Notes under the pieces: model-generated
Told to the model about the DNA's origin: nothing
What the model saw: the letters and a program-made list of their open reading frames with translations, nothing else
The model's database searches: none
NCBI RefSeq assembly: GCF_003641205.1
Contig: NZ_CP032762.1
Coordinates: 1,984,001-2,048,000 of the forward strand
Direction of reading: 5' to 3'
Source: Rhodococcus sp. P1Y
Lineage (GTDB): Bacteria; Actinomycetota; Actinomycetes; Mycobacteriales; Mycobacteriaceae
DNA length: 64,000 bases
Shown here: positions 2 through 14,981 of the stretch, piece by piece
How the letters are laid out: every line of letters begins with the position of its first letter
How positions within the stretch are numbered: the first letter of the stretch is position 1
Position numbers and translations under genes: made by a program

Positions 2-3000
2 CGGCGAGTGCTCATCGGCCTCGAAGGCCATGGCAGGGAGGAGAACATCGTTCCCGGTGCGGACCTGTCGCACACCGTCGGCTGGTTCACATCGTTCTTC
101 CCCGTGGTGCTGGACACCGCAGATGTCGATCCGGTCAACGCCGTCCTCGACCCGCAGAGCGCGGCGGAGGCGGTGCTTCGCGTCAAGGAACAACTCGCCG
201 CGGTCCCCGACCGCGGTATCGGTTTCGGGATGCTGTGGCAGCTGAATCCTGACGTGGGCACGCGGCTTGGGTCCGGGCGCGGTCCACAGATCGGGTTCAA
301 TTACCTCGGTCAGTTCGCTGGCGGAGACGCTGCCGATGAGAATGCGGCGTGGGATCTTGCGCCGGAACTGCCGGGTATCGACGCGTACGAGACAGCCGGT
401 CAAAGCATCGACTCGGCGGCCGATATCAACATAGCCGCGGTGCCCGAAGGCGACGGGTGGATGCTCAGCGGCGACATCGCTTACGCGTCCGGCGTCCTGA
501 CCGCGGACGAGGTCGCCGAGCTCGTCGAACTGTGGGTCCAGGCGCTGGGCGCTCTCGCCGAATACGCTCGCTCTGCGGTCCTGGTCAGGCGCTCGCCGTC
601 GGACGTTCTCGCCCCCGGCGTGACGCAAGCCGACCTCGAGCGCTGGGAGGGCTTCTACGGTGAGCTCGCCGATGTGCACCCGCTGACTCCGCTGCAGCAT
701 GGGCTCGTGCTGGAGTCGATGCTCGGTTCGAGTGACGGGGGAGTCGACGTCTACTCGGCTCAGACCGTGTATCACCTCGACGGTGCCGGTGAGCCCGATC
801 GATTCCGGGTTGCCCTTGACCAGTTGCTCGAGCGGTTCCCGAACATGAAGATCGCGATCGCTCATACGTCACGGGGCGAGTCCGTTGCAGTCGTGCCGGC
901 CGCCGTGGACCTCCCGGTCACCGTTATCGACGTCGCTGACGAGTCCGCCGTCGGTGAGGTCGCCGAGCGCGACCGCGCGACTCGCTTCGATTTCTCCCGT
1001 GCGCCGTTGGTGCGTGCGACGGTTGTGCGGTATCCGACCGGACACGCGTTCATCCTGACCATTCACCACGCACTCGTCGACGGTTGGTCGATGGTGCGAC
1101 TCCTCGAAACGATGTGGGAGGCGTACGGCCGGCCGGCCGAAGTGGTCGAACCGGACCTGTCGTTCGCGAAGTTCCTGTCCTGGATGACTGCACGCGATGC
1201 GCACGCCTCGCTGCAGCGGTGGGCCGAGGTGCTCGCCCCGGTCATCGAGTCGACCGTCGTTGCGCCGGGTGCCGCGGCGAGCGTCGCGAGTCTGCCCGAA
1301 GACATCGTGGTGACTCTCGACGCCGCGACGAGCGCCGCGCTCGCCGATGTGGCGCGATCTGCCGGCGCCACGATGAGCAGCCTGCTGCAGACCGTATGGG
1401 CGGTCTTCCTCAATACGATCACCGGTCAGAGCACGGTGGTCTTCGGTGCCGTCGTGTCGGGTCGTCCCCCCGAGGTCGACGCGGTCGAGGACGCAGTCGG
1501 TTCGTTCATCAACACGGTTCCGGTGGTCGTGCAGCTCGAGGGCAATGCGAGCCTCGCCGAGACGGTGCGCCGGGTGCAGGACCAGAACTCCGCGATCATC
1601 GAGCACCATCAGGTATCGCTCGCCGAGTTGCAGCGTCTGGGCGGACACCATCCGCTGTTCGACACGTTGATGGTTTACCAGAACTATCCGTCCGACTCCG
1701 AGACGCTCGAACTCGTCCGGGACAACGCTGGAATCAAGATTCTCGGCGAGTCCGGGCGGGAAGCGACGCACTACCCGCTCACGTTCGCCGCGCAAGCGGG
1801 CGCCGAGACGTGGGTGCGGTTGTCGTATCGGCCCGATCTGTTCGACGCCGAGGTTGCCACGAGGTTCACCACTGTTCTGAAACGCATCGTCGATGTGTTC
1901 GCAACCGACCCGGGCCGCTCGATCGCGTCGCTGGACGTGTTGCCCTCGCGCGACGTGGCGGCGGTGGCTGCGTGGTCTGCCGGTCCGGTTGTGTCGGTGG
2001 CGGATTCGACGTTGGATGCGTTGATCGCGAACCGTGTGACTGTCGCTCCGGATGCGCTCGCCGTCATAGACGACCGCGGATCCGAGTGGACGTACATCGA
2101 CTTCGATGCCCGGGTCAACGCGTTGGCACATGTGTTGATCGAGCACGGAGTACACGTAGGAGACCGGGTTGCAGTCATCCTGCCGCGGAGTCTCGACTTG
2201 GTCACCGCGCTGTTCGCGGTGATCCGAGCAGGGGCCGCGTATGTGCCGATCGATCCTGAGTATCCGGATGAACGGATCGGGCACATCCTCGACGACGCGG
2301 CCCCGGCCATGATCGTCACCGACGATTTCTTGAGCGACCCGGCAGTGGCTGCACGCCTCACACAGGGTGAGAGCGCGGCGCCGGTCCTGGCCCGGGCCCT
2401 GACCCCTGCCGACACCGCCTACGTGATTTTCACGTCCGGTACCACCGGACGCCCCAAAGGTGTCGCGATCTCCCACCGGGCGATCATCAACCGTCTTATC
2501 TGGATGGCCACCGACTACCGGATCGGCGCCGGCGATCGGATCCTGCAGAAAACACCGTCGGTGTTCGATGTCTCGGTGTGGGAATTCTTCCTCCCCGCCC
2601 TAGTCGGCGCCACCCTCGTCGTCGCGAAGGACGGCGGCCACAAAGACCCGTCGTATCTCGCCGAGATCATCGACCGCCACCGAATCACCGTCCTGCACTT
2701 CGTCCCCGCCATGCTCGCCGCATTCCTCACCGCCACCCCCGACCCGCACCGACTGACCTCGGTGCGGCGGGTGTTCTTCTCCGGCGAAGCCCTCCCCGCC
2801 GCGAACGCCGCCGCCGCCGACCGACTCTTCGCCGGCGCCGAACTCCACAACCTCTACGGCCCCACCGAAGCCGCCGTCGACGTCACCGCCGAACCCGTCC
2901 ACGCCGACGCGTTGACCGACACCGTGACCGTGCCGATCGGGGTGCCGGTGGCCAACACCGTCACCCGTGTACTCGACACCTGGCTACGCCCCGTACCCGT

Positions 3001-4561
3001 CGGTGTGACAGGGGAGCTCTACCTCGGCGGCACCCAACTCGCCGACGGCTACCTCTCCCGCCCCGACCTCACCGCCACCCGCTTCATCGCCATCGCCGCA
3101 GGCGAACGTCTCTACCGCACCGGCGATCTCGTCCGCTGGAACACCACCGGGCACCTCGACTACCTCGGGCGTTCGGACGATCAGGTCAAAATCCGCGGGT
3201 TCCGCATCGAACTCGACGAGATCCGCGTCGTCCTCGAGCACCACCCCGCCGTGTCGACCGCGATCGTCACCGCCGTCGACCACCCGAACGGCACCGGAAA
3301 ATACCTCGCCGCCTACCACACCGGCACCCAGGTCACCGGTGAGGAACTGCGCGCGTTCCTCACCGACCGGGTACCGGACTACATGGTCCCGACGGTGTTC
3401 ATCCCCATCGACACCGTCCCCGTCACCCCGAACGGCAAGCTCGACCGCCGGGCCTTGCCCACACCCGACCTCACAGCAGCCCGCGCCGGCGGACGGGAAC
3501 TTACGACCGACGTGGAGAAGGCCATCGGGCGGTTGTTCCGCGAGGTCTTGGGACTCGAAGTCGACACTGTGCTCAGCGCAGACGACCACTTCTTCCGTCT
3601 CGGCGGGCACTCGTTGCTCGCCGTCCGGTTGGTCGCGCGGGCGAACGAGGAGATCAGAACGTCGTTGCTTCTGAACGACGTGTTCCAGAACCCGACCGTT
3701 GCAAGTTTGGCTGTCGCAGCGCAGGTGCGCGCGGACAGTACGGTCACCTCGACCGACGTGTGCGACGCGATACTCGTCCCGCTGTCGCCGTCCTCGTCGG
3801 GGCGCTATCTGTTCTGTGCGCACACGATGTACGGCGGCGATGCTACTGCGTACGACGTGTTGGCCGAGTACGTGCCGGCCGGGCTGGGGATCGTGGGGTT
3901 GCAGGACCCGGCTCACGGCGGCGTCGACATCGAATTCGACACGCTCGCCGATCTGGCCGTCGTCTACGCGAATGCGGTGCAACGTGTGCAGTCGACCGGG
4001 CCGTACGACCTCCTCGGCTGGTCCTACGGCGGACACATCATGTTCGCTGTGGCACAGGAGCTTCGCTCGAGAGGAGAGGAGATCCACTCCTTGACGATCA
4101 TCGACACCTATCCGACGAGCGCCCACGAGGCGCCTGCGTCCGATGTGTCGCTCGTCGACGACCGGCAGGCCCAGCTGGAGTACCTGGAAGGCAGACGCGA
4201 GGACTTGTTCGCCATTCTCGGCGACGACGGAAGCCGCGCCTTGTTTGCGAACCAGACGCTCGTCAAAGCGTTCGCGGTGTCAGGCAGCCGATGTGAACAA
4301 CTCATGGCGCAACCCACCAGAGGCCGACTCGACTGCGCGTCGCTCGTCGTGGTGGCCCAGGAAACAATCGACAGTTTCGAAGCCCAGGGACTCACCGCTG
4401 GAGTCGACGCCTGGCGTACCCATCTCCCGCGGACCGTGATGACACAGGCCGACGGCGAAGACCACACGTCGGTGATCCTCACCGCAGGCGGCCGAGCCCA
4501 CTGGGGTGCACAGCTCACACGACTACTGGAACAAGGCGATGAAGGAGCCGAACAACAATGA
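2..4561 (+). CDS. Non-ribosomal peptide synthetase, C-terminal part (E-end, C-A-T-TE), 5' truncated by window
   Basis: The reading frame is open from the window edge, so the true start is upstream. In order: the tail of an epimerization domain (FNYLGQF near residue 97), a condensation domain (HHALVDGWS near 352), an adenylation domain (TSGTTGRPKG near 809), a carrier domain (LGGHSLL, Ser near 1202) and a thioesterase (GWSYGG near 1339, GEDH near 1485). Aligned from memory to GrsA/EntF, the A-domain pocket reads D-V-W-H-F-S-L-V-D, the EntF serine code. An upstream E domain means the previous residue is a D-amino acid, so the product probably ends D-Xaa-Ser and is released by the TE, as in vanchrobactin- or chrysobactin-type catecholates. 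It overlaps the carrier-protein gene by 4 bp. Family and order are clear. The product is inferred. Confidence 0.95.
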   Translation, partial: RRVLIGLEGHGREENIVPGADLSHTVGWFTSFFPVVLDTADVDPVNAVLDPQSAAEAVLRVKEQLAAVPDRGIGFGMLWQLNPDVGTRLGSGRGPQIGFNYLGQFAGGDAADENAAWDLAPELPGIDAYETAGQSIDSAADINIAAVPEGDGWMLSGDIAYASGVLTADEVAELVELWVQALGALAEYARSAVLVRRSPSDVLAPGVTQADLERWEGFYGELADVHPLTPLQHGLVLESMLGSSDGGVDVYSAQTVYHLDGAGEPDRFRVALDQLLERFPNMKIAIAHTSRGESVAVVPAAVDLPVTVIDVADESAVGEVAERDRATRFDFSRAPLVRATVVRYPTGHAFILTIHHALVDGWSMVRLLETMWEAYGRPAEVVEPDLSFAKFLSWMTARDAHASLQRWAEVLAPVIESTVVAPGAAASVASLPEDIVVTLDAATSAALADVARSAGATMSSLLQTVWAVFLNTITGQSTVVFGAVVSGRPPEVDAVEDAVGSFINTVPVVVQLEGNASLAETVRRVQDQNSAIIEHHQVSLAELQRLGGHHPLFDTLMVYQNYPSDSETLELVRDNAGIKILGESGREATHYPLTFAAQAGAETWVRLSYRPDLFDAEVATRFTTVLKRIVDVFATDPGRSIASLDVLPSRDVAAVAAWSAGPVVSVADSTLDALIANRVTVAPDALAVIDDRGSEWTYIDFDARVNALAHVLIEHGVHVGDRVAVILPRSLDLVTALFAVIRAGAAYVPIDPEYPDERIGHILDDAAPAMIVTDDFLSDPAVAARLTQGESAAPVLARALTPADTAYVIFTSGTTGRPKGVAISHRAIINRLIWMATDYRIGAGDRILQKTPSVFDVSVWEFFLPALVGATLVVAKDGGHKDPSYLAEIIDRHRITVLHFVPAMLAAFLTATPDPHRLTSVRRVFFSGEALPAANAAAADRLFAGAELHNLYGPTEAAVDVTAEPVHADALTDTVTVPIGVPVANTVTRVLDTWLRPVPVGVTGELYLGGTQLADGYLSRPDLTATRFIAIAAGERLYRTGDLVRWNTTGHLDYLGRSDDQVKIRGFRIELDEIRVVLEHHPAVSTAIVTAVDHPNGTGKYLAAYHTGTQVTGEELRAFLTDRVPDYMVPTVFIPIDTVPVTPNGKLDRRALPTPDLTAARAGGRELTTDVEKAIGRLFREVLGLEVDTVLSADDHFFRLGGHSLLAVRLVARANEEIRTSLLLNDVFQNPTVASLAVAAQVRADSTVTSTDVCDAILVPLSPSSSGRYLFCAHTMYGGDATAYDVLAEYVPAGLGIVGLQDPAHGGVDIEFDTLADLAVVYANAVQRVQSTGPYDLLGWSYGGHIMFAVAQELRSRGEEIHSLTIIDTYPTSAHEAPASDVSLVDDRQAQLEYLEGRREDLFAILGDDGSRALFANQTLVKAFAVSGSRCEQLMAQPTRGRLDCASLVVVAQETIDSFEAQGLTAGVDAWRTHLPRTVMTQADGEDHTSVILTAGGRAHWGAQLTRLLEQGDEGAEQQ

Positions 4562-4806
4562 TGCTGAGTAGCGAACAGGCACAGGAAGATGTCGCACACG
4601 TGCTGTACATGGCGGTAGACGAACTCGACCACGGGCTGGACCTGCGTGAGCAGGGGATGGATTCGGTGCGCGTGATGCAACTCGTCGAGCAGTGGCGCAC
4701 CGCAGGGGTAGAGAAGGTCGACTACATCGTGCTGGCGGAGGATCCACGGCTCGAACGTTGGCTCGAGGTCCTGGCGGACCTGCAGCAGCCTGCGGAATCG
4801 GTGTAG
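4558..4806 (+). CDS. Stand-alone aryl carrier protein of the siderophore synthetase
   Basis: An 82-residue protein that starts inside the NRPS stop (ATGA overlap) and is therefore probably translationally coupled. The core GMDSVRVMQLVEQWR carries the Asp-Ser phosphopantetheine site and closely resembles the C-terminal aryl carrier domain of EntB and DhbB (LDSVRMM...RW). It lacks the isochorismatase domain to which that carrier is fused in EntB. It would accept the aryl-AMP made by the ligase encoded convergently at 4867-6477 and present the aryl thioester to the first condensation domain. It resembles aryl carriers more than peptidyl carriers because the segment after the helix (VDYIVLAEDPRLERW) parallels EntB. 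Confidence 0.85.
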   Translation: MMLSSEQAQEDVAHVLYMAVDELDHGLDLREQGMDSVRVMQLVEQWRTAGVEKVDYIVLAEDPRLERWLEVLADLQQPAESV

Positions 4807-4866: not shown

Positions 4867-6477
4867 TTACTTTCGCTTACTGATCTTGCCGACAGCTGTC
4901 CGCTCGAACTCGGTGACCAGTTCGACCACGTCGGGCAGCTTGTAGGCGGCGAGACCTTTGCCCTTCAGGAACTGGCGAACCTTGGGTAGCGACAGCGTTT
5001 TCGGATCCACACCCGCGCGTGGCAGCAGGAAGGCCTTCACCCGTTCACCGAGGACGGCGTCGGGCATGCCTTGTACCGATGCTTCGTGGACCGATTCGTG
5101 TGCCAATAGCAGATCCTCGACCTCGGCGGGTGCGACTTTCTCACCGCCACGGTTGATCTGGTCCTTGGATCGTCCGGTGACCGTCAGGTAACCGTCGGCG
5201 TCCTGGACGACGATGTCGCCGGTTCGATAGAACCCGTCCTCGGTGAAGACATGCTGGTGCTGGGGGGCGTTGTAGTAGCCACGGATCGTGGAGGGTCCTC
5301 TGGTCAGAAGGTCACCGGCGCTGCCGATTTCGACGTCCATGTCGTGAGCGTCGACGACGCGGATTTCCTCGGCGTCGGTGGTCGGCCGGCCCTGGCGGGT
5401 GGTGATGATGTCCTCGCTCGCATCGAGTCGGGTGAAGGTGTGCAGTCCTTCGGCCATGCCGAAGGACTGTTGGACGGTTGCGACGAGCTCCGGCCGGACG
5501 CGCCGGGCCGAGTCGGGGCTGAACTTGGCGCCGCCGACCTGCATGACGGCGAGCGTGGACAGGTCGTGTTGCAGTTTCAGTGACGAGTTCAGCCAGGCGA
5601 GTGCAAGCGGGGGGACCAGCGCGACGATGGTGACGCCGTGCTCGGCGATGAGAGGGAAGGCGACGTCGGGGCTGCCGTTGGGAGCCATGACGACGGTGCC
5701 GCCGGCCGCCAGGGTGGAGAGGTATCCCGGGGAGCGCATCGCGAAGCTGTGCGACATCGGCAGCACGACGAGTTGCACGGTGTCGGAGGTGATGTCGGTC
5801 ATTGCCGCTGCGGCTCGGACGGACGCGAGGTAGGTCTCGTGGGTGTGCGGAACGAGCTTCGGGCGATCGGTCGTGCCGCCGGACAATGCCAGGAACGCGA
5901 CATCCGACGGCAGGGATCGCCGACGGTGTTCCAGTGTGCCCTGCGCAAGAAGCGGCTCGAGTCCACCGGAACCGACGATGATCGTGTGTTCGAGCGTGGA
6001 CGACGACGACTTCAGCTCGGCTGCGAGAGCCGCGAGATCGTTCCCGTCGTGTGCGGCGGTGGTGATGTACCCGCGGGCCGCAGACTCTTCGACAATGTAG
6101 CCGATTTCGTGCAGGCGCAGCGCAATCGGGGTGAGGACGGGTACTGCGCCGATCTCGTAGAGCGCGAACACCAGCGCCACGTAGTCGGGAATGTTCGGTA
6201 GGTGGACCACGACGCGGTCGCCCCGCCGGATTCCGAGCCGCTCGAACCCCGCCGCGAGCGTCAGAATCCGTTCGCCCAGTTGGCCGTACGTGATTCGGGT
6301 GTCACCGAAGATCAGGGCGACGTCCTCCGAGTGCTGTTCGATCGAGGCGAACAGGAACTCGGTGAACGTCTCGTCGAGCCAGATGCCCTTCTCGCGGTAC
6401 TTCTGCGCGAACTCGGGTGGATACGGGACGACTCCGTCCAGGACGAGGGGTGCGAGGTCGTGCGTGGACGCAGTCAT
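4867..6477 (-). CDS. dhbE: Dihydroxybenzoate-AMP ligase (DhbE/EntE family)
   Basis: This 536-residue stand-alone adenylation enzyme should activate a dihydroxybenzoic acid and load it on the carrier protein. It has the DhbE/EntE length and opening (VPYPPEFAQKYREKGIW), the P-loop SGGTTDRPKLVP at 199-210, and the hinge region NRGGEKVAPAEVE. Two departures stand out. The P-loop has Asp204 where Gly is usual. The acid-pocket motif reads PMSHSFAMRSPG (239-251), so the Asn that follows His in DhbE (His234-Asn235) and, as far as I recall, in 2,3-DHB and salicylate ligases is Ser244 here. That Asn contacts the 2-hydroxyl in DhbE. It lies 16 bp downstream of the dehydratase gene in the same operon. 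Family membership is firm. The exact acid is open. Confidence 0.93.
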   Translation of the reverse strand: MTASTHDLAPLVLDGVVPYPPEFAQKYREKGIWLDETFTEFLFASIEQHSEDVALIFGDTRITYGQLGERILTLAAGFERLGIRRGDRVVVHLPNIPDYVALVFALYEIGAVPVLTPIALRLHEIGYIVEESAARGYITTAAHDGNDLAALAAELKSSSSTLEHTIIVGSGGLEPLLAQGTLEHRRRSLPSDVAFLALSGGTTDRPKLVPHTHETYLASVRAAAAMTDITSDTVQLVVLPMSHSFAMRSPGYLSTLAAGGTVVMAPNGSPDVAFPLIAEHGVTIVALVPPLALAWLNSSLKLQHDLSTLAVMQVGGAKFSPDSARRVRPELVATVQQSFGMAEGLHTFTRLDASEDIITTRQGRPTTDAEEIRVVDAHDMDVEIGSAGDLLTRGPSTIRGYYNAPQHQHVFTEDGFYRTGDIVVQDADGYLTVTGRSKDQINRGGEKVAPAEVEDLLLAHESVHEASVQGMPDAVLGERVKAFLLPRAGVDPKTLSLPKVRQFLKGKGLAAYKLPDVVELVTEFERTAVGKISKRK

Positions 6478-6493
6478 CTGTACCTTTCGTGGT

Positions 6494-7315
6494 TCAGGTG
6501 GTCGTGTATTCGAGCCGGTTGATCAAGGCGCTGAGGGATTCCGCTCCGTGTGCGGCGACTTCGGCCGCAGGGCGTTCGCGGTAGCCGGGGTTGAAGATTT
6601 CCAGCGACAGTGGTCCGGTGTAGCCGGATTCGAGGAGTGCGGCGACGGGGGCGAAGACGTCGAAGTCGCCGTCGCCGGGGAAGCAGCGGTGGTTCCGACT
6701 CCACTGGATCAGTTCGAGGTCCATCCAGGGGGCGTCGGCTACTTGAACGAACCCGATGCTGCGGGGAACAAGGGCTTGCACGTCCGTGATGTCGTCGCCG
6801 ACGGCGTAGAGGTGGAAGGTGTCGACGACGAGGGACAGTGAAGGGTGGTCGGCGCGTGTGAGCGCGTCTTCGACGTCGGCGACTCGGTTGATGTGGGTGC
6901 CCCAGGCAAGGGCTTCGAACATGACGGTGGCGCCGTGTTCGGCTGCGGCGGCGCCGAGTGCGTGCAGCTGTGAGGCGGTGAGGTCCCGGTCGTCTATGGC
7001 GTCGGCGTCGGTGTTGGAGACGACGAGGATGGCGTCGGCCCCCAGAGCTTCCATGGTGTCGCATTCGCGGTGGAAGCGTTCGAGGACTTGGATGAATTCG
7101 GTGTCCGTGACGCCCTCGGCGCGCCGGAAGGGTTGGTAGAGATCGACCGTCAAGCCGAGATCGTTGCAACGCTGGGCAACTTCGGCGACGGTCAGCGGTG
7201 ATGCGGCGAGGTCCGCGTCGAGGATTTCGACGCCGTCGAAGCCTGCCGCGGCGATGCCGTCGAGTTTGTCCGCGAGGGTTCCGCCGAGCGACACGGTGGC
7301 GATGCAGGTCTTCAC
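6494..7315 (-). CDS. TIM-barrel isomerase-family enzyme, probable 3-dehydroshikimate dehydratase
   Basis: A 273-residue AP-endonuclease-2/xylose-isomerase-fold protein. Segments such as EALAWGTHINRV (134-145), DTFHLY (165-170), QVADAPWMDLELIQWSRNHR (191-210) and CFPGDGDFD are those of QuiC/AsbF-type 3-dehydroshikimate dehydratases. Likely metal ligands are Glu134, Asp165, Gln191 and Glu239. Such enzymes make protocatechuate (3,4-dihydroxybenzoate) either for catabolism or, in petrobactin, as the siderophore catechol. It lacks the C-terminal HPPD-like domain of Pseudomonas QuiC1. It sits between two iron-box-like sites and the aryl-AMP ligase gene, which argues for a siderophore role over catabolism. 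The alternative is another sugar isomerase activity. Confidence 0.8.
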   Translation of the reverse strand: MKTCIATVSLGGTLADKLDGIAAAGFDGVEILDADLAASPLTVAEVAQRCNDLGLTVDLYQPFRRAEGVTDTEFIQVLERFHRECDTMEALGADAILVVSNTDADAIDDRDLTASQLHALGAAAAEHGATVMFEALAWGTHINRVADVEDALTRADHPSLSLVVDTFHLYAVGDDITDVQALVPRSIGFVQVADAPWMDLELIQWSRNHRCFPGDGDFDVFAPVAALLESGYTGPLSLEIFNPGYRERPAAEVAAHGAESLSALINRLEYTTT

Positions 7316-7375: not shown

Positions 7376-7394
7376 TTAACCTAGCCTTACCTGA
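7376..7394 (-). promoter_or_regulatory. Second IdeR-type iron box overlapping the stop of the upstream ABC gene
   Basis: On the minus strand TCAGGTAAGGCTAGGTTAA matches about 14 of 19 positions of the IdeR consensus. It includes the stop codon of the ABC gene at 7376. With the site at 7351-7369 it forms a tandem operator, so the dehydratase-ligase pair can be iron-repressed independently of the transporter genes. Confidence 0.55.
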
Positions 7395-9145
7395 TTTCGG
7401 TGATGTATGTCGGCGCTGTACACAGACCACAGCTCGGCGTAGCGGCCCGCGGCATCGAGTAACTCCTCGTGGGTGCCTTCCTCGACGATCGACCCGTGTT
7501 CGAGGACGACGATGCGGTCGCACGCACGTGCCTGTGAGAGTCGATGCGCGATGACGATCGCCGACCGATCCTCCAGCGCCCTCGCCGTCGCCTGGTCGAG
7601 CAGAGCCGAGTTGCGCGAATCCGCTTCTGCCGTGGCCTCGTCCAGGATCGCGACTGCGGGGTCGTGCAGGACCAGCCTGGCCAGCGCGAGCAGCTGAACG
7701 TCCGCTGCGGTGATGCGGTGGCCTTCCTCGCCGAGTTCGGTGTCGAGGCCATCTGGGAGCGACGCGAGAAGGGAATCGCCGCCGACGAGTGACAGTGCGT
7801 GCGTCAGTGACTCGTCCGAAGCGTCCGGCGCGGCTAACGCCAGATTCTCGCGCAGAGTTGCCGAGAAGACCCGTCCCTCCTGGTTCAGGTACGCGATCTG
7901 TGATCGATGTACCGAAGCGTCGATGGTTCCACTGGCCGGCTCGCGCACCCCGGCAATCAGGCGGGCGAGCGTTGTCTTGCCCGAACCGCTCGTGCCGACG
8001 ATGGCGAGGTGTTCCCCGGCGTGGAGAGTCAGATCGATGCCGTTCAGAACCGGGTGCTCCGGTAGGTAGGAGAAGGATGCATCACGAACTGCGACGACGG
8101 GGCCGTCCTGCCCGACTACTGAAGCCGGCGCGGCCGCAGGGGGAGTGTAGTTCTTCGTGACACCCACGACCCGTGCGAGAGATGCTGCGGCGGACTGCAA
8201 GTCGTCCATGACGAACATCAGCATCGAGATCGGTCCGGTGACCTGCAGGAACAACAGCGACGCGGCGGTGATCGAACCCAGTGATGTGCCGTAGCGCGCA
8301 GCGAGGACGAACCCACATCCGACGATCAACAGCAGACAGATGGCCTCGGCGAGGTTGATGCGGCCGAAGAAGCGGTTCTGCATGATTCGAGCGCGCACCT
8401 CCCACCGGGCCACACCCCAAGTAGCGCTCTGGATTTCGTCGACACGAGCTTTGCCGGTCTGAAATGCGGTAACAGTGGGAAGCGCGGTGAGTGTGGTGAG
8501 TACGCGTTCGCCGCGAGTGCTGTCTGCCGAGCGCAGTGCTCCGTACACCGGCGGCACCGCCGGGAGATACCACCTCAATGCTCGTACGTACAGCGGCGTG
8601 GCAAGCAAGAATGCGATGCCGAAGCGCCAGTCGATGGCCGCCGCCCCGATGACGGTCAGCACGATCGTGAAGATCGCTGCCGACAGTGTCGGCAGAATCG
8701 ACGGGAGATCCTCGGACACGTTGCGTGTGTCGGAAGCGGCGCGAGTTACGATGTCTCCGAAACCCACTCGTTCCACTTCGGTCTCCGGCAGATCCAGTGT
8801 CGCCGACATGAACTTCTCACGCAGGTCCGCGACCATCATGTCGATGACGCGCCCGAGCGCGACCATGCCGAAGAACTCGACGATGCCGCCGATGAGGGCA
8901 GCCGCGACCAACGCAGTCAACTGCCACCAGAACACCGCGGGAACTTCCGACGCGCCGCTGGCGGTCACCGTGTCGACGATCCATCCGATGGTCAGTGGGA
9001 GGACGAGCGTCGTGGCCGCCGAGATCAGCAGCAGCAGGAGGATCCCCGCGATCCTCGCCTTCTTACCCTCTGCGAGTTCTGTTATCTCGTTGCGCATCTC
9101 GCGCCAGTCGGCGACCGGGAGACGCTGCACTTCGGAATCGCTCAC
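7376..9145 (-). CDS. ABC transporter, exporter fold, ATPase-competent half (IrtB-like)
   Basis: A 589-residue half-transporter with an N-terminal six-helix membrane domain (about 40-330) and a C-terminal nucleotide-binding domain. Walker A GTSGSGKTT (near 382), Walker B VAILDEATAEAD (near 500) and the H-loop IVIAHRLS (near 533) are intact. The signature LSGGQ is replaced by ITAADVQ (near 478). The partner gene upstream overlaps it by 4 bp and has the opposite defects, so the two should form one working ATP site. With a siderophore-interacting flavoprotein divergent from the pair, the arrangement recalls mycobacterial IrtAB, which imports ferric siderophores despite its exporter fold. Siderophore export is the alternative. 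Confidence 0.9.
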   Translation of the reverse strand: MSDSEVQRLPVADWREMRNEITELAEGKKARIAGILLLLLISAATTLVLPLTIGWIVDTVTASGASEVPAVFWWQLTALVAAALIGGIVEFFGMVALGRVIDMMVADLREKFMSATLDLPETEVERVGFGDIVTRAASDTRNVSEDLPSILPTLSAAIFTIVLTVIGAAAIDWRFGIAFLLATPLYVRALRWYLPAVPPVYGALRSADSTRGERVLTTLTALPTVTAFQTGKARVDEIQSATWGVARWEVRARIMQNRFFGRINLAEAICLLLIVGCGFVLAARYGTSLGSITAASLLFLQVTGPISMLMFVMDDLQSAAASLARVVGVTKNYTPPAAAPASVVGQDGPVVAVRDASFSYLPEHPVLNGIDLTLHAGEHLAIVGTSGSGKTTLARLIAGVREPASGTIDASVHRSQIAYLNQEGRVFSATLRENLALAAPDASDESLTHALSLVGGDSLLASLPDGLDTELGEEGHRITAADVQLLALARLVLHDPAVAILDEATAEADSRNSALLDQATARALEDRSAIVIAHRLSQARACDRIVVLEHGSIVEEGTHEELLDAAGRYAELWSVYSADIHHRNQVRLG

Positions 9146-10875
9146 GAAAGTTCTCCTGCGATGCTGTTCGTGGACACTGCGTGGAAGGCGGGCGAGGACG
9201 TGATGACGATCGTGGTGAATCCTTCTCGCGCCGAACGCACTCTGGTGGCGATGTCGTTCTCGGTGGCCGAGTCCACGGAATTCGTCGGATCGTGCAGGAC
9301 GAGTACCGGCGGCCGGCGATGTAGTGCGCGGGCGAGTGCCACGCGTTGTCGTTGGCCACCGGACAGGGTTCTGCCGCCGTCACCGATATGGGTGTCGTAG
9401 CCGTCGGGGAGTTCGTGCTCGAGGCTGTCGCAGCGGGCGGTCCGCAAGGCGTCGCGGGCTCGGGTGTGCTCGTCCGACCCCGGAACTGCCTCCGAGGATG
9501 CCACATTGGCGAACAACGTCGGTTCGAGGAGATCCGGCTGATGGGGTGCGACGAGTATGCGGCGTCGGACCTCGTCAGGGTCATGTTCTCGCAGGGGCCG
9601 TCCGTCGAGTGTGATGTTCGGGCTCTTGTCCTGCTCGCCGCGCGAGGTCAAGGTCATCGCGGCGACGAGCCCGTCGGCATCGATCGCGGACGGGTCGATC
9701 ACGAGAAATTCGCCGGGGGCGACGTCGATCGGGTCGGTCATCTGGGGCGGGTGGATCCTAAGCGTCGGAGACGCCGGGATCGGTTGGGTTCCGAGTGCCT
9801 CCGGATCGGGCCCGATGTGGAGTTGATCGAGAACACGCTTGGCTGACGACAACACCGTCGCACCCAGCGTTGCGGCGTCTTCGATGAGATTTCGCAGCGG
9901 ATCGAGGAGCACCTGTGCCATGGCGGCAGCGGCGATCAGACCACCGATCGAGATGGATCCGTTGAACGCGAGCGCCGCGGCGATGACGGTCACCACGCCA
10001 GCGAACAGACTGGTGAGAGCATTGTTGATGCCGATGACCGCGCCCTCCGCCTTGTTGGCCGCGAGAGTGCCGCGCAGGGCGGATCGGGACACGCCTCGGT
10101 AATGGTTCGCGGCGGCGCGCTGGGCGTGGATGCCCGAGATCACTCGGTACCCGGACACCAGATCGGCGGCGATACCTGCAGCGTCCGCGATACCTTCCTG
10201 TTCCTCTTCCGCGCGTTTCTGCAGTGGACGCGCGACAACGGCCATGAGTGCCAACAGCAACGGCGACCCGAGAATGACGGTCAGGCCGAGCATCGGGTGG
10301 ATCGCGAACAGCGACACAGCCGCGACGACGACGGCGACGACATTGCCGAGTGGGTACACCGCGAAATAGATTGCGCTGCTGGCCCGGTCGCTGTCGGAGG
10401 TTGCCACCGACAGCAGCCGCCCTGGAAGCTGCGGTCCACCGGCGGTTCCGCGTGCGTCGAGGATGCGCTCGATCACTCGCGACGACAGCTCGTACTTCGC
10501 ACGCTGTACAGCGAACCAACCGATGCGCCCGCCGAAGCGGTACGTCAGGTTGATGGCCACATAGAGGGCTGCGAGGACGGCGAGCCACTGCAGGAACCCG
10601 CCGACGGCCTCACCGGCAGGGGTGCCCGTGGTGACCGGCCCGATGCCGCGATCGATCGCAGCACCCAATGCCAGCGGAACGAGCGTCATCGCGGTGTTGT
10701 ACAGCACCAGGAGCAGGCACCCGAGTGCCGCATGCCAGCCGGCCGATCGGATGATCGACGCCGCCAGGCGCTGCGGCGACATGCCGTCGTGGATTCTGAT
10801 TCGGCGCTGGGGTGGCGTGTCCGGGATGTCGAAGAAGACAGGTATGTGCTTGGGCGGATTCCAGGCGGATGTCAT
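9142..10875 (-). CDS. ABC transporter, exporter fold, degenerate half (IrtA-like without flavin domain)
   Basis: A 577-residue half-transporter with a membrane domain (about 40-330) and a nucleotide-binding domain. The signature LSGGQRQR (near 506) is canonical. Walker A is missing (LVIDPSAIDADG where GxxGxGKST is expected, near 390). Walker B reads VLVLHDPT (His-Asp for Asp-Glu, near 527). The H-loop histidine is replaced in VITSSPAF (near 555). The half therefore cannot hydrolyse ATP alone and lends its signature to the partner. Unlike IrtA it carries no N-terminal siderophore-interacting domain, which is a separate divergent gene here. The ATG at 10875 lacks a clear ribosome binding site. 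Confidence 0.88.
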   Translation of the reverse strand: MTSAWNPPKHIPVFFDIPDTPPQRRIRIHDGMSPQRLAASIIRSAGWHAALGCLLLVLYNTAMTLVPLALGAAIDRGIGPVTTGTPAGEAVGGFLQWLAVLAALYVAINLTYRFGGRIGWFAVQRAKYELSSRVIERILDARGTAGGPQLPGRLLSVATSDSDRASSAIYFAVYPLGNVVAVVVAAVSLFAIHPMLGLTVILGSPLLLALMAVVARPLQKRAEEEQEGIADAAGIAADLVSGYRVISGIHAQRAAANHYRGVSRSALRGTLAANKAEGAVIGINNALTSLFAGVVTVIAAALAFNGSISIGGLIAAAAMAQVLLDPLRNLIEDAATLGATVLSSAKRVLDQLHIGPDPEALGTQPIPASPTLRIHPPQMTDPIDVAPGEFLVIDPSAIDADGLVAAMTLTSRGEQDKSPNITLDGRPLREHDPDEVRRRILVAPHQPDLLEPTLFANVASSEAVPGSDEHTRARDALRTARCDSLEHELPDGYDTHIGDGGRTLSGGQRQRVALARALHRRPPVLVLHDPTNSVDSATENDIATRVRSAREGFTTIVITSSPAFHAVSTNSIAGELS

Positions 10876-10918
10876 ATTTCGGCAGGCTCATGTTCCGGTG
10901 GGAGGGTACTCGGTCGGT

Positions 10919-10937
10919 TCACCATAGCCTCACCTAA
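10919..10937 (-). promoter_or_regulatory. Iron box for the ABC transporter operon
   Basis: On the minus strand TTAGGTGAGGCTATGGTGA matches about 14 of 19 positions of the IdeR consensus, with the left half almost perfect. It lies 44 bp upstream of the transporter start. Confidence 0.6.
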
Positions 10938-10969
10938 CTCGTATCGGACGCGGAAGGGTGAGTGAGGGC

Positions 10970-10988
10970 TGAGGGTAGGCTAGCCTAG
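10970..10988 (+). promoter_or_regulatory. Iron box for the siderophore-interacting protein gene
   Basis: TGAGGGTAGGCTAGCCTAG matches about 15 of 19 positions of the IdeR consensus and is the best such site in the window. It ends 48 bp before the flavoprotein start. With the site at 10919-10937 it makes the 161-bp divergent gap doubly iron-controlled. Confidence 0.7.
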
Positions 10989-11036
10989 GAGCCGCAGGCG
11001 CACGCCCGAACATCTGGACGAAGACGAGGACGACGA

Positions 11037-11924
11037 ATGACCGAGAAGGGTTTCTACTTCGCCGAAGTGGTCGCTGTCGAGCAATTGACTACACACATGG
11101 TCCGGGTGACATTCGGAGGTGACGATGTTGCTCGGTACGTCGGCATCGGAGCGCCCGACGAGTGTGTCACCATCTTCTTCGCCCGCGAAGGTGAGGAACG
11201 GCCGCCTGCCATGACCGAGATCGACGGCGAATGGTGGTACCACGACGTCGAGCCCGTTCCGGATGGGCGCAACTACACGGTGCGCCGAATCGACTCCGAG
11301 GCAGGGCAGCTCGTCATCGATTTCGTGGCGCACGAGGGTGGGGTCGCGGCGACCTGGGCGCTGAACGCAACCGTCGGACAGGTTGTTCTGTGGACTCGGC
11401 CCCGTTCCTGGTACGACATTCCCGAGACCGCGGAGTGGCAGCTGCTGGTTGCCGATATGACGGGACTGCCCGCATTGGGCCGCGTTATAGAAGAACTGCC
11501 TGCTGGCGCGAAGGCACATGCCATCGTCGAGGTGCTCGAACGTGGTGACATCCAGCAGTTCGAGACCGCGGGCGATGTCACGTTCGACTGGCGAATCGGT
11601 TCCGGCAACGGCGATTGCGCGAGCGTGCTGGAAAACGCTGTTCGTGACTACGCATTGCCCGAGGGCGAGGGGTACATCTGGTTCGCCGGAGAAGCGGCGT
11701 CATCGCGGACGGTGCGGAAGTACTTCCGCAAGGAACTCGGTTATCCCGTCCGGCAATTCGAGATCATCGGGTACTGGCGCGCCAACTCCGAACAGTGGTT
11801 GAAGAAGTACGAGAAGTACCAGGAAGAAGCGCTTGCCGTGTACAACGGCGCGCTCGAAGCCGGGCGCAGCCAGGGCGAGGCGAGCGAAGAATTCGACGCC
11901 TTGCTCGAGCGGGTAGGTCTGTAG
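11037..11924 (+). CDS. Siderophore-interacting protein (FAD/NAD(P)H ferric-siderophore reductase)
   Basis: A 295-residue protein of the ViuB/SIP family, which releases iron from imported ferric siderophores by reduction in the cytosol. The FAD domain has the family motif GRNYTVRRID near 79-88 and FVAHEGGVAATWA. The C-terminal NAD(P)H domain contains LLVADMTGLPALGRVIEEL and ends with GYWRANSEQW, a hallmark of the family. It is divergent from the ABC transporter pair and follows an iron box. The ATG at 11037 follows a purine-rich stretch (gacgaagacgagga). Confidence 0.93.
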   Translation: MTEKGFYFAEVVAVEQLTTHMVRVTFGGDDVARYVGIGAPDECVTIFFAREGEERPPAMTEIDGEWWYHDVEPVPDGRNYTVRRIDSEAGQLVIDFVAHEGGVAATWALNATVGQVVLWTRPRSWYDIPETAEWQLLVADMTGLPALGRVIEELPAGAKAHAIVEVLERGDIQQFETAGDVTFDWRIGSGNGDCASVLENAVRDYALPEGEGYIWFAGEAASSRTVRKYFRKELGYPVRQFEIIGYWRANSEQWLKKYEKYQEEALAVYNGALEAGRSQGEASEEFDALLERVGL

Positions 11925-12088
11925 GCGGCTTCGCCGCACAACCTGACCCACCACAACGGCGAGTTATTCACCTCCCATTCGATGTTGGTCGAGTGCTTCT
12001 CAAAGGTCCGGCTTCTGCCGGGGAGTGCTTGGCGAGACTTCGTTCGACTCAGTCATGCGGTACGACCGTGATTTCGAAAGGATCCACT

Positions 12089-13087
12089 TTGTCCGACACA
12101 CTTATTCGACGACGCGGTCTGCGTGTCCTTGCTGTCTTAGCAGGGGTTGCGATCGGTTTGTCCGGGTGCAGTAGTAGTGATAGCGGCACCACCGGCGATG
12201 CGAGCAACGACACCCGGGTGATCTCGACGGACAAAGGTGATGTCACCGTGCCTGCAGAACCGCAGCGCATTGCCGTTCTGTCGGCAGGCCTGGCCGGTTA
12301 CCTGTTCACGCTCGACGCGCCGATCGCGATCACCGATACCCGGTTGCTCGGTGTCACCAACCTCGACGGCGGGTTCCCGCCGCAGTGGGCAGAGAAGGCG
12401 GAGGAGCAGGGCACCAAGGAGCTCCCCGCAGGCGAGGCATTGAACATCGAGGCGATAGCGCAGGCCGAACCCGACCTCATCATCGGTGGTGGACAGGGCA
12501 TTTCAGCGGTCCAGGCCGACGAGGCGTACGACCAGTTGACTGCAATAGCGCCGACTGTGTTGATCCCGACGACCGTCAACACCTGGCAGGGCCAGCTCGA
12601 AGCCGTAGCCGATGCAGCAGGCGAGTCCGACAAGGTCGACGGGCTTCTTCAGGCGTACGACGACAAGGTGGCCGAGGTCAAGGACGCCATCACCGTTCCG
12701 GGATCGCCCGTCTCGTACCTGTTGTCGCTCAGCACCAACGAACCGGCGTTCATTCCTCAGACCGCTACGTTGCCGGACCTGCTGAAGAACGTCGGACTAG
12801 AGCCGGACGACGTGCTCACCAAGGCGAACAATCCCGAGCTGTACGGTTCGGGTGATTCGTTCATCATCAGCCCCGAACTTCTCGCGCCGGTCGCGAGCGC
12901 ACCGGTGATCATCGTCGTTCCGGTGGCCGGCCGGAGCCTGGAAGAACTGAAGCAGGATCCCGCCTACGCAGGCTTGCCGGCATTCGCGTCGGGCAACGTT
13001 TTCGAATTGCCCGCCACGAGTTACCGACCGGATTACGACGGGGTCATCTCGACCCTGGATCAGGTCCAGACGCTGTTCGCCAAGTAG
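12089..13087 (+). CDS. Ferric-siderophore ABC transporter substrate-binding lipoprotein
   Basis: A 332-residue FecB/FepB-type binding protein. A TTG start at 12089 is chosen because GAAAGGA at 12076-12082 sits at proper spacing. An in-frame GTG at 12068 is the alternative. The signal peptide ends in a lipobox (LSGC, Cys27), so the protein is anchored outside the membrane. The sequence IAVLSAGLAGYLFTLDAPIA and the EPDLIIGGG segment are typical of iron-siderophore receptors. No matching FecCD-type permease or ATPase is in the window, so its partners are elsewhere, unless it hands ligand to the IrtAB-like pair. No iron box is visible in the 164-bp upstream gap, which shows nothing else of note. 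Confidence 0.9.
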   Translation: MSDTLIRRRGLRVLAVLAGVAIGLSGCSSSDSGTTGDASNDTRVISTDKGDVTVPAEPQRIAVLSAGLAGYLFTLDAPIAITDTRLLGVTNLDGGFPPQWAEKAEEQGTKELPAGEALNIEAIAQAEPDLIIGGGQGISAVQADEAYDQLTAIAPTVLIPTTVNTWQGQLEAVADAAGESDKVDGLLQAYDDKVAEVKDAITVPGSPVSYLLSLSTNEPAFIPQTATLPDLLKNVGLEPDDVLTKANNPELYGSGDSFIISPELLAPVASAPVIIVVPVAGRSLEELKQDPAYAGLPAFASGNVFELPATSYRPDYDGVISTLDQVQTLFAK

Positions 13088-13534
13088 ATGGCAGGGACGG
13101 TACGTGAGGTCGAGGTCTTCCCGATCTGCATGCGCGAGATGGATGTCCTCGAGGTCGAGGACGTCACTCCTGGTATGCGACGGGTGATCCTGGGTGGGCC
13201 GTCGATGCGGAGTCACCACCGCGACGGCGTCGAGCTTCCCGACGTCAGGACAACAGGTTTCGACGACGACATCAAGCTGCTTCCGGTCGATCCCGCCACC
13301 GGATCCTTGCCGTTCGACATTCCGCGAAATCTGGACAACGGAACAGTGGACTGGCCTGCTGGGGCCTTTCCGTACAGCAGGACCTACACGGTCAGGAAGT
13401 TCGACGAATCCACCGGTGAGATGGCCGTCGATTTCGCGATTCACGACGGCGGTCTCGCATCCGACTGGGCGTATCGCGTGCAGCCGGGCGAGAAGATTCT
13501 GGTTGCCGGACCGAAGCACTCGTCCAGTCCCCGG
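13088..13534 (+). pseudogene. Siderophore-interacting protein, truncated after the FAD domain
   Basis: The first ~145 residues match the SIP family: VLEVEDVTPGMRRVILGGP near the start, the FAD motif YSRTYTVRKFD, and FAIHDGGLASDWAYRVQPGE. At LVAGPKHSS, where the NAD(P)H domain should begin, homology stops and the frame runs into a palindromic repeat and then antisense through the MFS gene. The whole C-terminal half, including the expected GYWR motif, is missing. It begins directly after the stop of the binding-protein gene, so it was once part of that operon. It is probably non-functional. Confidence 0.8.
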
Positions 13535-13584
13535 CCCAGTGGCGCGGTTAAGTGCCTTCCGCGGCACCTAATCGCGCCACTGGG
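13535..13584. repeat. Palindromic repeat family A, copy 1
   Basis: Left arm 13535-13556 and right arm 13563-13584 form a near-perfect 22-bp inverted repeat (core CAGTGGCGCGGTTAAGTGCC). It lies exactly where the truncated SIP gene ends and contains the MFS stop codon (13548-13550). Related copies are at 18062, 23324 and 37449. Confidence 0.85.
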
Positions 13585-14981
13585 GCGGAGCCCCGGCCGG
13601 GCATCAGGGCAGCGGCAAGGAGCATCAGGACCGCGGCCCCGAAGACACCGAGGAAGACCAGATGGATGGCGTCGGACAGTTGTTCGGGCTCCGGATCCCC
13701 TGAGACTCGGGCGTTGACGATCGCGCCGAAGACCGCGACGCCCACGGCGCTGCCGATGGACCGGGCGAACATGTTGGTGGACGTCGCGACGCCTCGCTCG
13801 GACCAATCGACCGCGGACTGCGCGGCGATCAACGTGGGGCTCGCGATGAGACCCATCCCGAGGCCGACGACGAAGCACACCGCGGCGATCATCCAGATCT
13901 GGGAGCCCTTGCCGATCAACGTCGCCAACCCGGTGCCGAGAACCGCGATGGAACCACCCGTCAACGCCGTGGCACGGAACCCGAAACGTAGATAGAACTT
14001 GCCCGACAGCGACGCGGCGATCGGCCAACCGAGCGTCAGAGTTGCCAGCGCGAACCCGGCCACGATGGCGCCGGTGCCGAGTACACCCTGAACGAAGGTC
14101 GGGACGTACGACGTCAACCCCAGCACCACCGCGCCGACGAGCAGGGAGACGAGACTGCTGACGACGAGTACGCGTCGCGTGAACACCCACAGCGGCAGGA
14201 TCGGTTCTTCAGCGCGGGTCTGCTGCCACGTGAACAGTGCGAGCGAGACGACGCCGAGGGCGAAGATCCCGACGGACATGCCCGACGCCCATGCCCACGT
14301 CTGACCGCCCTCCAACAACCCGAGCAGCAGTGCGGCGGCGCCGACGGTGAGCAGTCCGGCGCCAAGGTAGTCGATCTTGGGCTTCGAGCGCTCGACTGGC
14401 CCCTCGTGGAAGCGTCGGATCAGCATCCAGGCGGCCAACAGGCACAGCGGGATGTTGACGAAGAAGATCCATCGCCACGACAGGAACTCGGAGAAGATCC
14501 CGCCGAGGGCCGGTCCCAGCACCGACGACATCGCCCACACACTTGCCAGATAGCCCTGCACTTTCGCGCGTTCCTGCAGCGTGTAGATATCGCCCGCGAT
14601 CGTTATGGACATCGGCTGAACGGCGCCTGCGCCGAGGCCCTGGACCGCGCGGAACGCGATCAACGCAGGCATCGACCACGCCAGTCCGCACAGAATCGAG
14701 CCGAGCAGAAAGACGCCGATGCCCCAGAGCATGACCTTCTTGCGTCCGAACAAGTCGGCCAACTTGCCGTAGATCGGCACCGATACGGCCTGTGCCAGCA
14801 GGTAGATCGAGAACAACCAGGGAAACTGGCTGAAACCGCCGAGGTCGTCCACGATCGACAGGACGGCTGTCGCGATGATCGTCGAATCGAGCGCGACGAG
14901 GGAGGTGCTCAGCATCAGAGAAATGAGTACGGGCCCACGTTCGGAGCGGAAGCCGACGTCTGCGATCTTGTTCGTTGCCAT
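13548..14981 (-). CDS. MFS drug/metabolite exporter, DHA2 (EmrB/QacA) family, 14 helices
   Basis: About 477 residues from ATG 14981, with an alternative GTG at 15005. The profile is a 14-helix proton-coupled exporter: [15 protein letters not shown] in helix 1 (motif D1), [14 protein letters not shown] (motif A), and [23 protein letters not shown] (motif C region). It is divergent from purC, and an MFS gene also lies close to purC-ptrB in mycobacteria, so it is probably core genome and only a neighbour of the siderophore genes. Siderophore export cannot be excluded. Its last residues (about [12 protein letters not shown]) are encoded by the family A palindrome, suggesting that the original C-terminus was replaced. 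Confidence 0.88.

Follow-up and report, generated by a model that had tools for sequence, protein, structure and literature searches.

Which catecholic acid would be built into the product of a non-ribosomal peptide synthetase (NRPS) cluster that pairs an aryl-acid ligase with a 3-dehydroshikimate dehydratase? The question is raised by a locus at the beginning of the window, the whole stretch of 64,000 nucleotides analysed here, which covers positions 1984001-2048000 of the complete, single-contig genome of Rhodococcus sp. P1Y (5,868,661 bases). The original prediction had described two open reading frames (ORFs), a DhbE-type ligase and a QuiC/AsbF-like dehydratase, and had proposed a rare siderophore carrying 3,4-dihydroxybenzoate (3,4-DHB) rather than 2,3-dihydroxybenzoate (2,3-DHB). 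Both ORFs are found, at 4867-6477 and 6494-7315 on the reverse strand. From the gene content we arrive at the same reading, a peptide siderophore with a 3,4-DHB catechol, and put its probability at roughly 0.83. It is supported by the lack of an EntA-type gene, by the exchange of an asparagine for serine in the acid pocket of the ligase, and by the co-occurrence of this pocket with the dehydratase without EntA. The word rare needs revision, since the ligase type together with a close dehydratase is found under the names of many actinobacterial genera.

The dehydratase has 273 amino acids and is a TIM barrel of the AP_endonuc_2 family in Pfam. Its likeness to QuiC holds, with E 3e-69 as a single sequence and E 1.1e-112 with a profile against the N-terminal domain of that protein (5hmq). 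The active site of QuiC1/QsuB has been described as Arg64, Leu97, Glu134, Leu136, Asp165, His168, Gln191, Ser206, Arg210 and Glu239 (PMC7442255; here and below, papers are cited from excerpts of their texts). All 10 residues are present in the dehydratase with identical numbering, and they are invariant across 18 aligned relatives. The second domain of QuiC is lacking, and the two-domain QuiC model NF042435 gives 262 of 1200 bits, with only model positions 1-264 of 635 aligned. The likeness to AsbF turned out to be loose. AsbF (3dx5) is reached by profile only (E 0.0015) and is not among the 4 single-sequence matches, a relation so remote that the dehydratase was rejected as an AsbF orthologue. 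The expected product of the enzyme is 3,4-DHB. It is 98 percent identical to a dehydratase named Rhodococcus sovatensis, and its next-best relative within its own genome shows 27 percent identity.

The ligase (536 amino acids) has 2,3-DHB and salicylate ligases as its top solved relatives, 6e8o with E 2.4e-158 and DhbE (1md9) with E 1e-149. The match to DhbE spans residues 13-535, a homology over the full length. The protein stays under the cut-off of the 2,3-DHB ligase equivalog TIGR02275 (555.8 versus 723.55 bits) and is 92 percent identical to the ligase of Rhodococcoides fascians A44A. His243-Ser244 had been noted in the place of the His-Asn pair of 2,3-DHB and salicylate ligases, and indeed all five of the best solved ligases shown (6e8o, 1md9 DhbE, 5wm2, 7tyb PchD and 9bhy) have His-Asn there. 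The role given to this asparagine is also borne out by a review, according to which N235 bonds the 2-hydroxyl and S240 the 3-hydroxyl of the acid (PMC11253843). In the alignment of DhbE with the window ligase, H234 corresponds to H243, N235 to S244, Y236 to F245, S239 to R248, S240 to S249, V329 to S338 and V337 to H346. The residue in contact with the 2-hydroxyl is replaced by Ser244, and the residue in contact with the 3-hydroxyl is retained as Ser249. Across 21 aligned ligases of the same type, H243, R248, S249 and P250 are invariant and S244 is nearly so.

The remaining pocket changes can be related to engineered ligases. We equate V329 of DhbE with V336 of BasE by the constant offset of 7 between named pocket residues (N242/N235, S247/S240, V344/V337). 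BasE V336 lies 3.6 Å from ring carbon 4, and the variants V336A and V336G gain 8.5 to 89 fold in catalytic efficiency on 4-fluoro- and 4-methylsalicylate (PMC12005286). For EntE, exchange of N235 for G, A, S or T alters the acid specificity (PMC10296737). Judged from its residues, the pocket of the window ligase would fit a ring with hydroxyls at positions 3 and 4 and none at position 2.

To follow the pocket through relatives, the best 120 homologues of the ligase were classed by their residues at DhbE positions. HN has N at 235, HS_R has S or A at 235 together with R at 239, and HS_MST is a subclass with G at 333; R at 239 belongs to the definition of HS_R, and position 329 was not used in it. 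The set comprises 48 HN, 59 HS_R and 13 HS_MST sequences, and all sequences without N235 fall in HS_R or HS_MST. Position 235 in HS_R is Ser in 57 and Ala in 2 sequences, with Asn in 0/59. Position 329 is S, G or T in 59/59 HS_R and V in 48/48 HN; position 239 is R in HS_R and S in the 48 HN. In 33 HS_R sequences position 337 holds H, T or A, and S at position 240 is shared by all 120 homologues. We built a tree of 64 sequences from which the pocket columns had been removed, rooted on four salicylate-like loci. HS_R and HS_MST together form one clade within a paraphyletic HN (support 98 in the Shimodaira-Hasegawa-like approximate likelihood ratio test, SH-aLRT), and HS_MST is one clade inside it. 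Many ligases of the HS pocket type are named 2,3-dihydroxybenzoate-AMP ligase in databases, and the dehydratases bear names such as sugar phosphate isomerase, TIM barrel protein or 4-hydroxyphenylpyruvate dioxygenase. The family is hidden because databases name both proteins otherwise.

The HS_MST ligases carry the motif HSMSTRSPG ... GMGEGLVVSNP and occur under names that include Parafrankia, Phytohabitans, Kineosporia and Pseudonocardia. In one such locus (L118, G798:C21:222000-241999; G and L denote genomes and loci), the ligase at 9866-11488 (-) is accompanied by a related carrier ORF, a DapB-like reductase, a TcuA-like dehydrogenase, a flavoprotein of aromatic-hydroxylase type and methyltransferases, and its contig holds no dehydratase at E<=1e-12. 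The sole dehydratase match of this genome is on another contig, in a long frame. HS_MST ligases probably activate another acid; a pyridine carboxylate would be our guess.

The linkage of dehydratase and ligase was examined in several sets of loci. A named genome collection yielded 28 loci, 10 of HS type (L032-L040, L042) and 18 of HN type (L041, L043-L059). In 10/10 HS-type loci the dehydratase gene immediately precedes the ligase gene in the same orientation, at a distance of 33 to 100 bases (17 bases in the window), although some of the ten, with equal scores, may be near copies (L034, L036 and L039; L032 and L040). None of the 18 HN-type loci has a dehydratase within up to 10 kb on each side. 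Other HN loci agree. Within 1.5 kb of the ligase, no dehydratase is seen in any of 28 loci from the order sample (L061-L088, of which 27 carry Ser at DhbE 240) or of 7 more from the genus (L111-L117), and none is seen in the 3 loci for which 20 kb were examined (L104, L105, L119). Of 37 genomes in the genus sample, 5 possess an HS_R ligase, and in every one of them the dehydratase adjoins it. Few HS-type genomes were contained in the samples of the order and the phylum. Where the ligase contig measures 5 kb or more, a contig of equal size with a listed dehydratase exists for 19/46 HS_R, 0/42 HN and 0/13 HS_MST, where the dehydratases are the first 72 of 120 listed, less one without a contig, and one HN ligase without a contig was dropped. 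Six of the 19 shared contigs exceed 1 Mb, and sharing says little about adjacency there. On shorter contigs (<5 kb), 0 are shared among 13 HS_R and 5 HN ligases.

Both a ligase of the HS pocket type and a close dehydratase are listed for, among others, Rhodococcus artemisiae, Rhodococcoides fascians, Williamsia, Pseudonocardia, Demetria and Nesterenkonia, and also for Microbacterium, Micromonospora, Actinoplanes, Actinomadura and Kineosporia. For Microbacterium, Actinoplanes, Actinomadura flavalba and Kineosporia babensis the contigs listed for the two genes differ in length, so that the two may not be adjacent there. Gordonia has the ligase only among the matches listed. One Pseudonocardia-type genome (G247) seemed to break this pattern, since the 20 kb around its HS_R ligase contain no dehydratase. 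The gene is nevertheless present in the same orientation at a distance of about 16 kb, where it immediately follows a carrier domain. The locus L039, from a record titled Kitasatospora arboriphila NRRL B-24581, has the same identities to the window as Williamsia muralis (L034), 65.478 percent for the ligase and 62.313 percent for the dehydratase. Given these equal figures, the record may be misnamed or contaminated.

The genes of the usual 2,3-DHB route were predicted to be missing from the window, and we find none there. The genome has 5 isochorismatase-domain matches and 4 matches to the isochorismate-synthase model, with 0 of either in the window. In the whole genome, 0/108 matches to the EntA/DhbA model pass the curated cut-off, the best at 177 of 300 bits, and none does so in the window. 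One isochorismate synthase over cut-off is present at a distant locus, between a HAD phosphatase and an O-succinylhomoserine sulfhydrylase, a setting that would fit menaquinone synthesis. Supply of the acid by a distant entABC set was rejected on the lack of EntA over cut-off and on the unrelated context of this synthase. We likewise rejected use of 3,4-DHB by NRPS-independent siderophore (NIS) synthetases, as IucA/IucC has 0 matches at E<=0.001 in the genome.

The same pattern emerges from a comparison of 16 genomes for EntA (E<=1e-60, curated cut-off 300 bits). EntA matches are absent in 6/6 genomes with an HS_R ligase (G000, G783, G799, G778, G795, G247). Each of 10/10 genomes with a 2,3-DHB-type ligase has one (G160, G305, G361, G780, G792, G794, G797, G798, G805, G808), 6 over the cut-off and 4 at 291.5 to 299.7 bits. 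Besides G361, these ten are the full set of 9 HN-ligase genomes from the genus search; G798 has an HS_MST ligase as well, and G247 of the first group also has an HN ligase with the CPG motif, salicylate-like. A close dehydratase (59 to 100 percent identity) is present in the same 6 HS_R genomes. The other 10 have no dehydratase, or a copy of 42-45 percent identity whose frame, at 667 to 936 codons, has the length of a two-domain enzyme.

A third gene of the locus had been overlooked, a small ORF of 82 amino acids (LREQGMDSVRVMQL) whose start codon overlaps the stop of the NRPS gene. It matches the carrier family PF00550 with 21.9 bits, narrowly above the cut-off of 20.8, has the DS attachment motif, and finds its best of 13 solved matches in the carrier part of EntB (2fq1, E 2.2e-5). 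Related carrier ORFs are located in the equivalent place in L121, L032 and L040, and 7 Williamsia-type loci (L034-L039, L042) have one immediately 5' of the dehydratase gene. In 8/8 proteins of 358-373 amino acids examined, including 5 from Pseudonocardia and 1 from Demetria, a carrier domain forms the N-terminus of the dehydratase itself; a Pfam carrier match was obtained in 4/5 of the fusions scanned. Other Pseudonocardia dehydratases (289-291 amino acids) are too short for a carrier domain. The fusion of dehydratase and carrier is the strongest sign that the ligase loads the dehydratase product.

Taken together, the following route is proposed. The dehydratase would convert 3-dehydroshikimate from the shikimate pathway into 3,4-DHB, which the ligase would adenylate and load onto the free-standing carrier. 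A condensation domain of the adjoining NRPS would then move the aryl group onto an amino acid. The ligase would have descended from 2,3-DHB-type ligases: loss of Asn235 would remove the contact with the 2-hydroxyl, Ser in place of V329 would make room for the 4-hydroxyl, and the retained Ser240 would hold the 3-hydroxyl. For the family as a whole we consider it likely that one actinobacterial EntE-type lineage switched from 2,3- to 3,4-DHB by rebuilding its pocket (N235 to S, S239 to R, V329 to S or G) and gained a dehydroshikimate dehydratase, in some cases fused with the aryl carrier, which replaced the isochorismate route. It would so have founded a class of NRPS 3,4-catecholate siderophores over many actinobacterial genera, annotated as the 2,3-type and missed by mining for EntA plus EntC.

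Several observations weigh against the assignment to 3,4-DHB. Because HS_R and HS_MST are one clade, the pocket was changed a single time; the counts above reflect later conservation and are not independent. The 13/120 HS_MST ligases share S244, R248, S249 and S338 with the window ligase and lack the dehydratase; pocket letters alone are therefore no proof of 3,4-DHB. Ser at DhbE 329 is present in 18/18 HN loci of the named collection as well and is not diagnostic by itself, though the scan that gave these loci partly used the query peptide QQSFGMAE, which favours Ser at this position. In 16 of these 18 control loci the ligase has the CPG found in ligases of the salicylate type. Val is kept at position 337 in 26/59 HS_R. 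The BasE variants V336A and V336G still take 2,3-DHB at 1.11 and 0.54 of wild type (PMC12005286), and hence a change of residue 329 alone would not exclude 2,3-DHB. The protein that comes closest to the ligase elsewhere in the genome (33 percent, 223 bits; L022) reads His-Asn. No carrier ORF was found in L033, a locus of HS type. Finally, a neighbouring NRPS is fragmented, and the strain may therefore not make the product.

Part of this evidence could be accommodated if the ligase still activated 2,3-DHB or salicylate supplied from elsewhere in the genome or from outside, next to an unrelated dehydratase. Overall the ligase sequence is nearest to 2,3-DHB ligases, BasE variants opened at carbon 4 can still bind 2,3-DHB, an isochorismate synthase over cut-off is at hand, and rhodochelin is a precedent for a siderophore that needs genes outside its own cluster (PMC5550956). 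We nevertheless regard this as quite unlikely: with 0/108 EntA matches over cut-off, a synthase whose context points to menaquinone and Asn235 missing in 59/59 HS_R ligases, it would also leave the dehydratase linkage and the carrier fusion unexplained. It is unlikely, too, that the dehydratase product is altered before activation and the acid is a 3,4-DHB derivative, for example methylated, aminated or further hydroxylated. A pocket opened at V329 and V337 could hold more than a hydroxyl, and the clade seems to have changed its substrate before, as the HS_MST ligase of G798 with its hydroxylase-type, methyltransferase and DapB-like genes suggests. Against such a modification, no gene lies between dehydratase and ligase, neither in the window nor in the 10 HS-type named loci, although a tailoring gene may be encoded further away.

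Very improbable, in our view, is a catabolic dehydratase that turns quinate or shikimate into protocatechuate and was placed here by chance. QuiC is the nearest solved relative, and relatives do have long-frame copies of 42-45 percent identity. Those relatives (G778, G799, G795, G247), however, carry the long-frame copy in addition and elsewhere; the window dehydratase is a single domain, and several Pseudonocardia as well as Demetria have the enzyme joined to an aryl carrier domain.

The proposed 3,4-DHB route combines features of known systems. In petrobactin biosynthesis (AsbF-AsbC-AsbD-AsbE) a dehydratase also makes 3,4-DHB and a ligase loads it onto a small carrier (PMC6836290). Petrobactin is, however, assembled by NIS synthetases on citrate and spermidine, whereas the window genome has no IucA/IucC and the partner is an NRPS; moreover, its dehydratase is QuiC-like and only remotely related to AsbF. 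The starter units of enterobactin and bacillibactin (EntA, EntB, EntC, EntE; DhbACEB) share the stand-alone homologous ligase and the EntB-type carrier that feed an NRPS, but in the window genome EntA is missing over cut-off, the residue that reads the 2-hydroxyl is changed, and the window has no isochorismatase match. In EntB an isochorismatase is joined to the carrier, and in some relatives of the window cluster the dehydratase takes the place of the isochorismatase. The two-domain dehydratases QuiC1/QsuB have all 10 active-site residues in common with the window enzyme, which differs in its single domain and its place in a siderophore cluster, and some of its relatives have an N-terminal aryl carrier. 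Within the same genus group, Rhodococcus makes the NRPS siderophores heterobactin, rhodochelin and rhequibactin. Heterobactin and rhodochelin use 2,3-DHB. Rhequibactin differs from the window cluster by its Ent/DhbCAEB homologues (PMC2947987).

One paper names 3,4-DHB made by AsbF as the typical moiety of NIS siderophores (PMC13251462). A census of peptide metallophores published in eLife in 2026 equates catechol with 2,3-DHB, detects it by EntA plus EntC, and reports ten clusters without a chelator pathway anywhere in the genome (PMC12971057). The terms AsbF, dehydroshikimate, 4-dihydroxybenz, petrobactin and protocatech each occur 0 times in the main text of this census, and it contains no rule for 3,4-DHB. 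The main texts of the kineochelin paper and of the Rothia paper have 0 occurrences of dihydroxybenz or DHB, and that of the serpentinite paper has 0 of dihydroxybenz. A Brevibacterium paper describes 2,3-type genes in one strain and a further catecholate cluster without named acid genes. Among the open-access titles and beginnings of abstracts searched, none describes an NRPS siderophore with 3,4-DHB; a report in a subscription journal could exist. The cluster would follow the logic of enterobactin with the acid and supply of petrobactin, and the combination and the enzyme family appear new to the open-access literature searched, as far as its titles and excerpts go. The motif HS...RSP in a ligase together with a clustered single-domain dehydratase could become a detection rule. 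The family would correct the 2,3-type naming of many of its ligases, and it offers a natural counterpart to the laboratory re-specifying of aryl-acid ligases.

The adjoining NRPS gene starts at genome position 1975716, upstream of the window. Its Pfam domains comprise 3 adenylation, 4 condensation-type, 3 carrier and 1 thioesterase domain, and the first adenylation domain has its nearest counterpart in a module of linear gramicidin synthase. The features of the locus are collected in Table 1.

Table 1. Features of the proposed 3,4-DHB siderophore locus, in window positions
Feature	Position	Strand	Basis
NRPS of three modules (4281 amino acids), 3' part	2..4561	+	Pfam scan of L008:6716-19558
Aryl carrier protein, free-standing	4558..4806	+	PF00550; EntB carrier part 2fq1; relatives
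DhbE/EntE-like aryl-acid AMP ligase whose acid pocket is altered; proposed to activate 3,4-DHB	4867..6477	-	
His346 of the ligase (DhbE V337)	5440..5442	-	alignment
Ser338 of the ligase (DhbE V329, taken as BasE V336)	5464..5466	-	alignment
Pocket segment His243-Ser244-Phe-Ala-Met-Arg248-Ser249-Pro250	5728..5751	-	DhbE H234-P241
QuiC-type 3-dehydroshikimate dehydratase, single-domain; predicted 3,4-dihydroxybenzoate producer	6494..7315	-	
ATP-binding cassette (ABC) transporter, membrane and ATPase domains	7376..9145	-	PF00664, PF00005
Second ABC transporter, membrane and ATPase domains	9142..10875	-	PF00664, PF00005
Siderophore-interacting flavin adenine dinucleotide (FAD) protein	11037..11924	+	PF04954, PF08021
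Fe-siderophore binding protein	11795..13087	+	PF01497; NF008200 148 bits, under its cut-off of 205

The fragmented NRPS is located upstream of the window on the reverse strand (genome positions 1952463-1970867, L007 and L008) in several broken frames, and one of its adenylation domains resembles the final adenylation domain of the intact NRPS. In the matching region of a close relative (G783) there are long open frames of 3439 and 3110 codons. The fragmentation may reflect decay or an error in sequencing. A gene 39 kb upstream encodes a lysine/ornithine N-monooxygenase (323 bits), which makes a mixed catechol-hydroxamate product plausible. The real start of the Fe-siderophore binding protein is probably further downstream than the ORF indicates. 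Behind it, at 13088-13717 (+), follows a siderophore-interacting protein with the FAD-binding domain only (PF08021, no PF04954), which looks truncated and whose gene overlaps a major facilitator superfamily (MFS) gene on the opposite strand.

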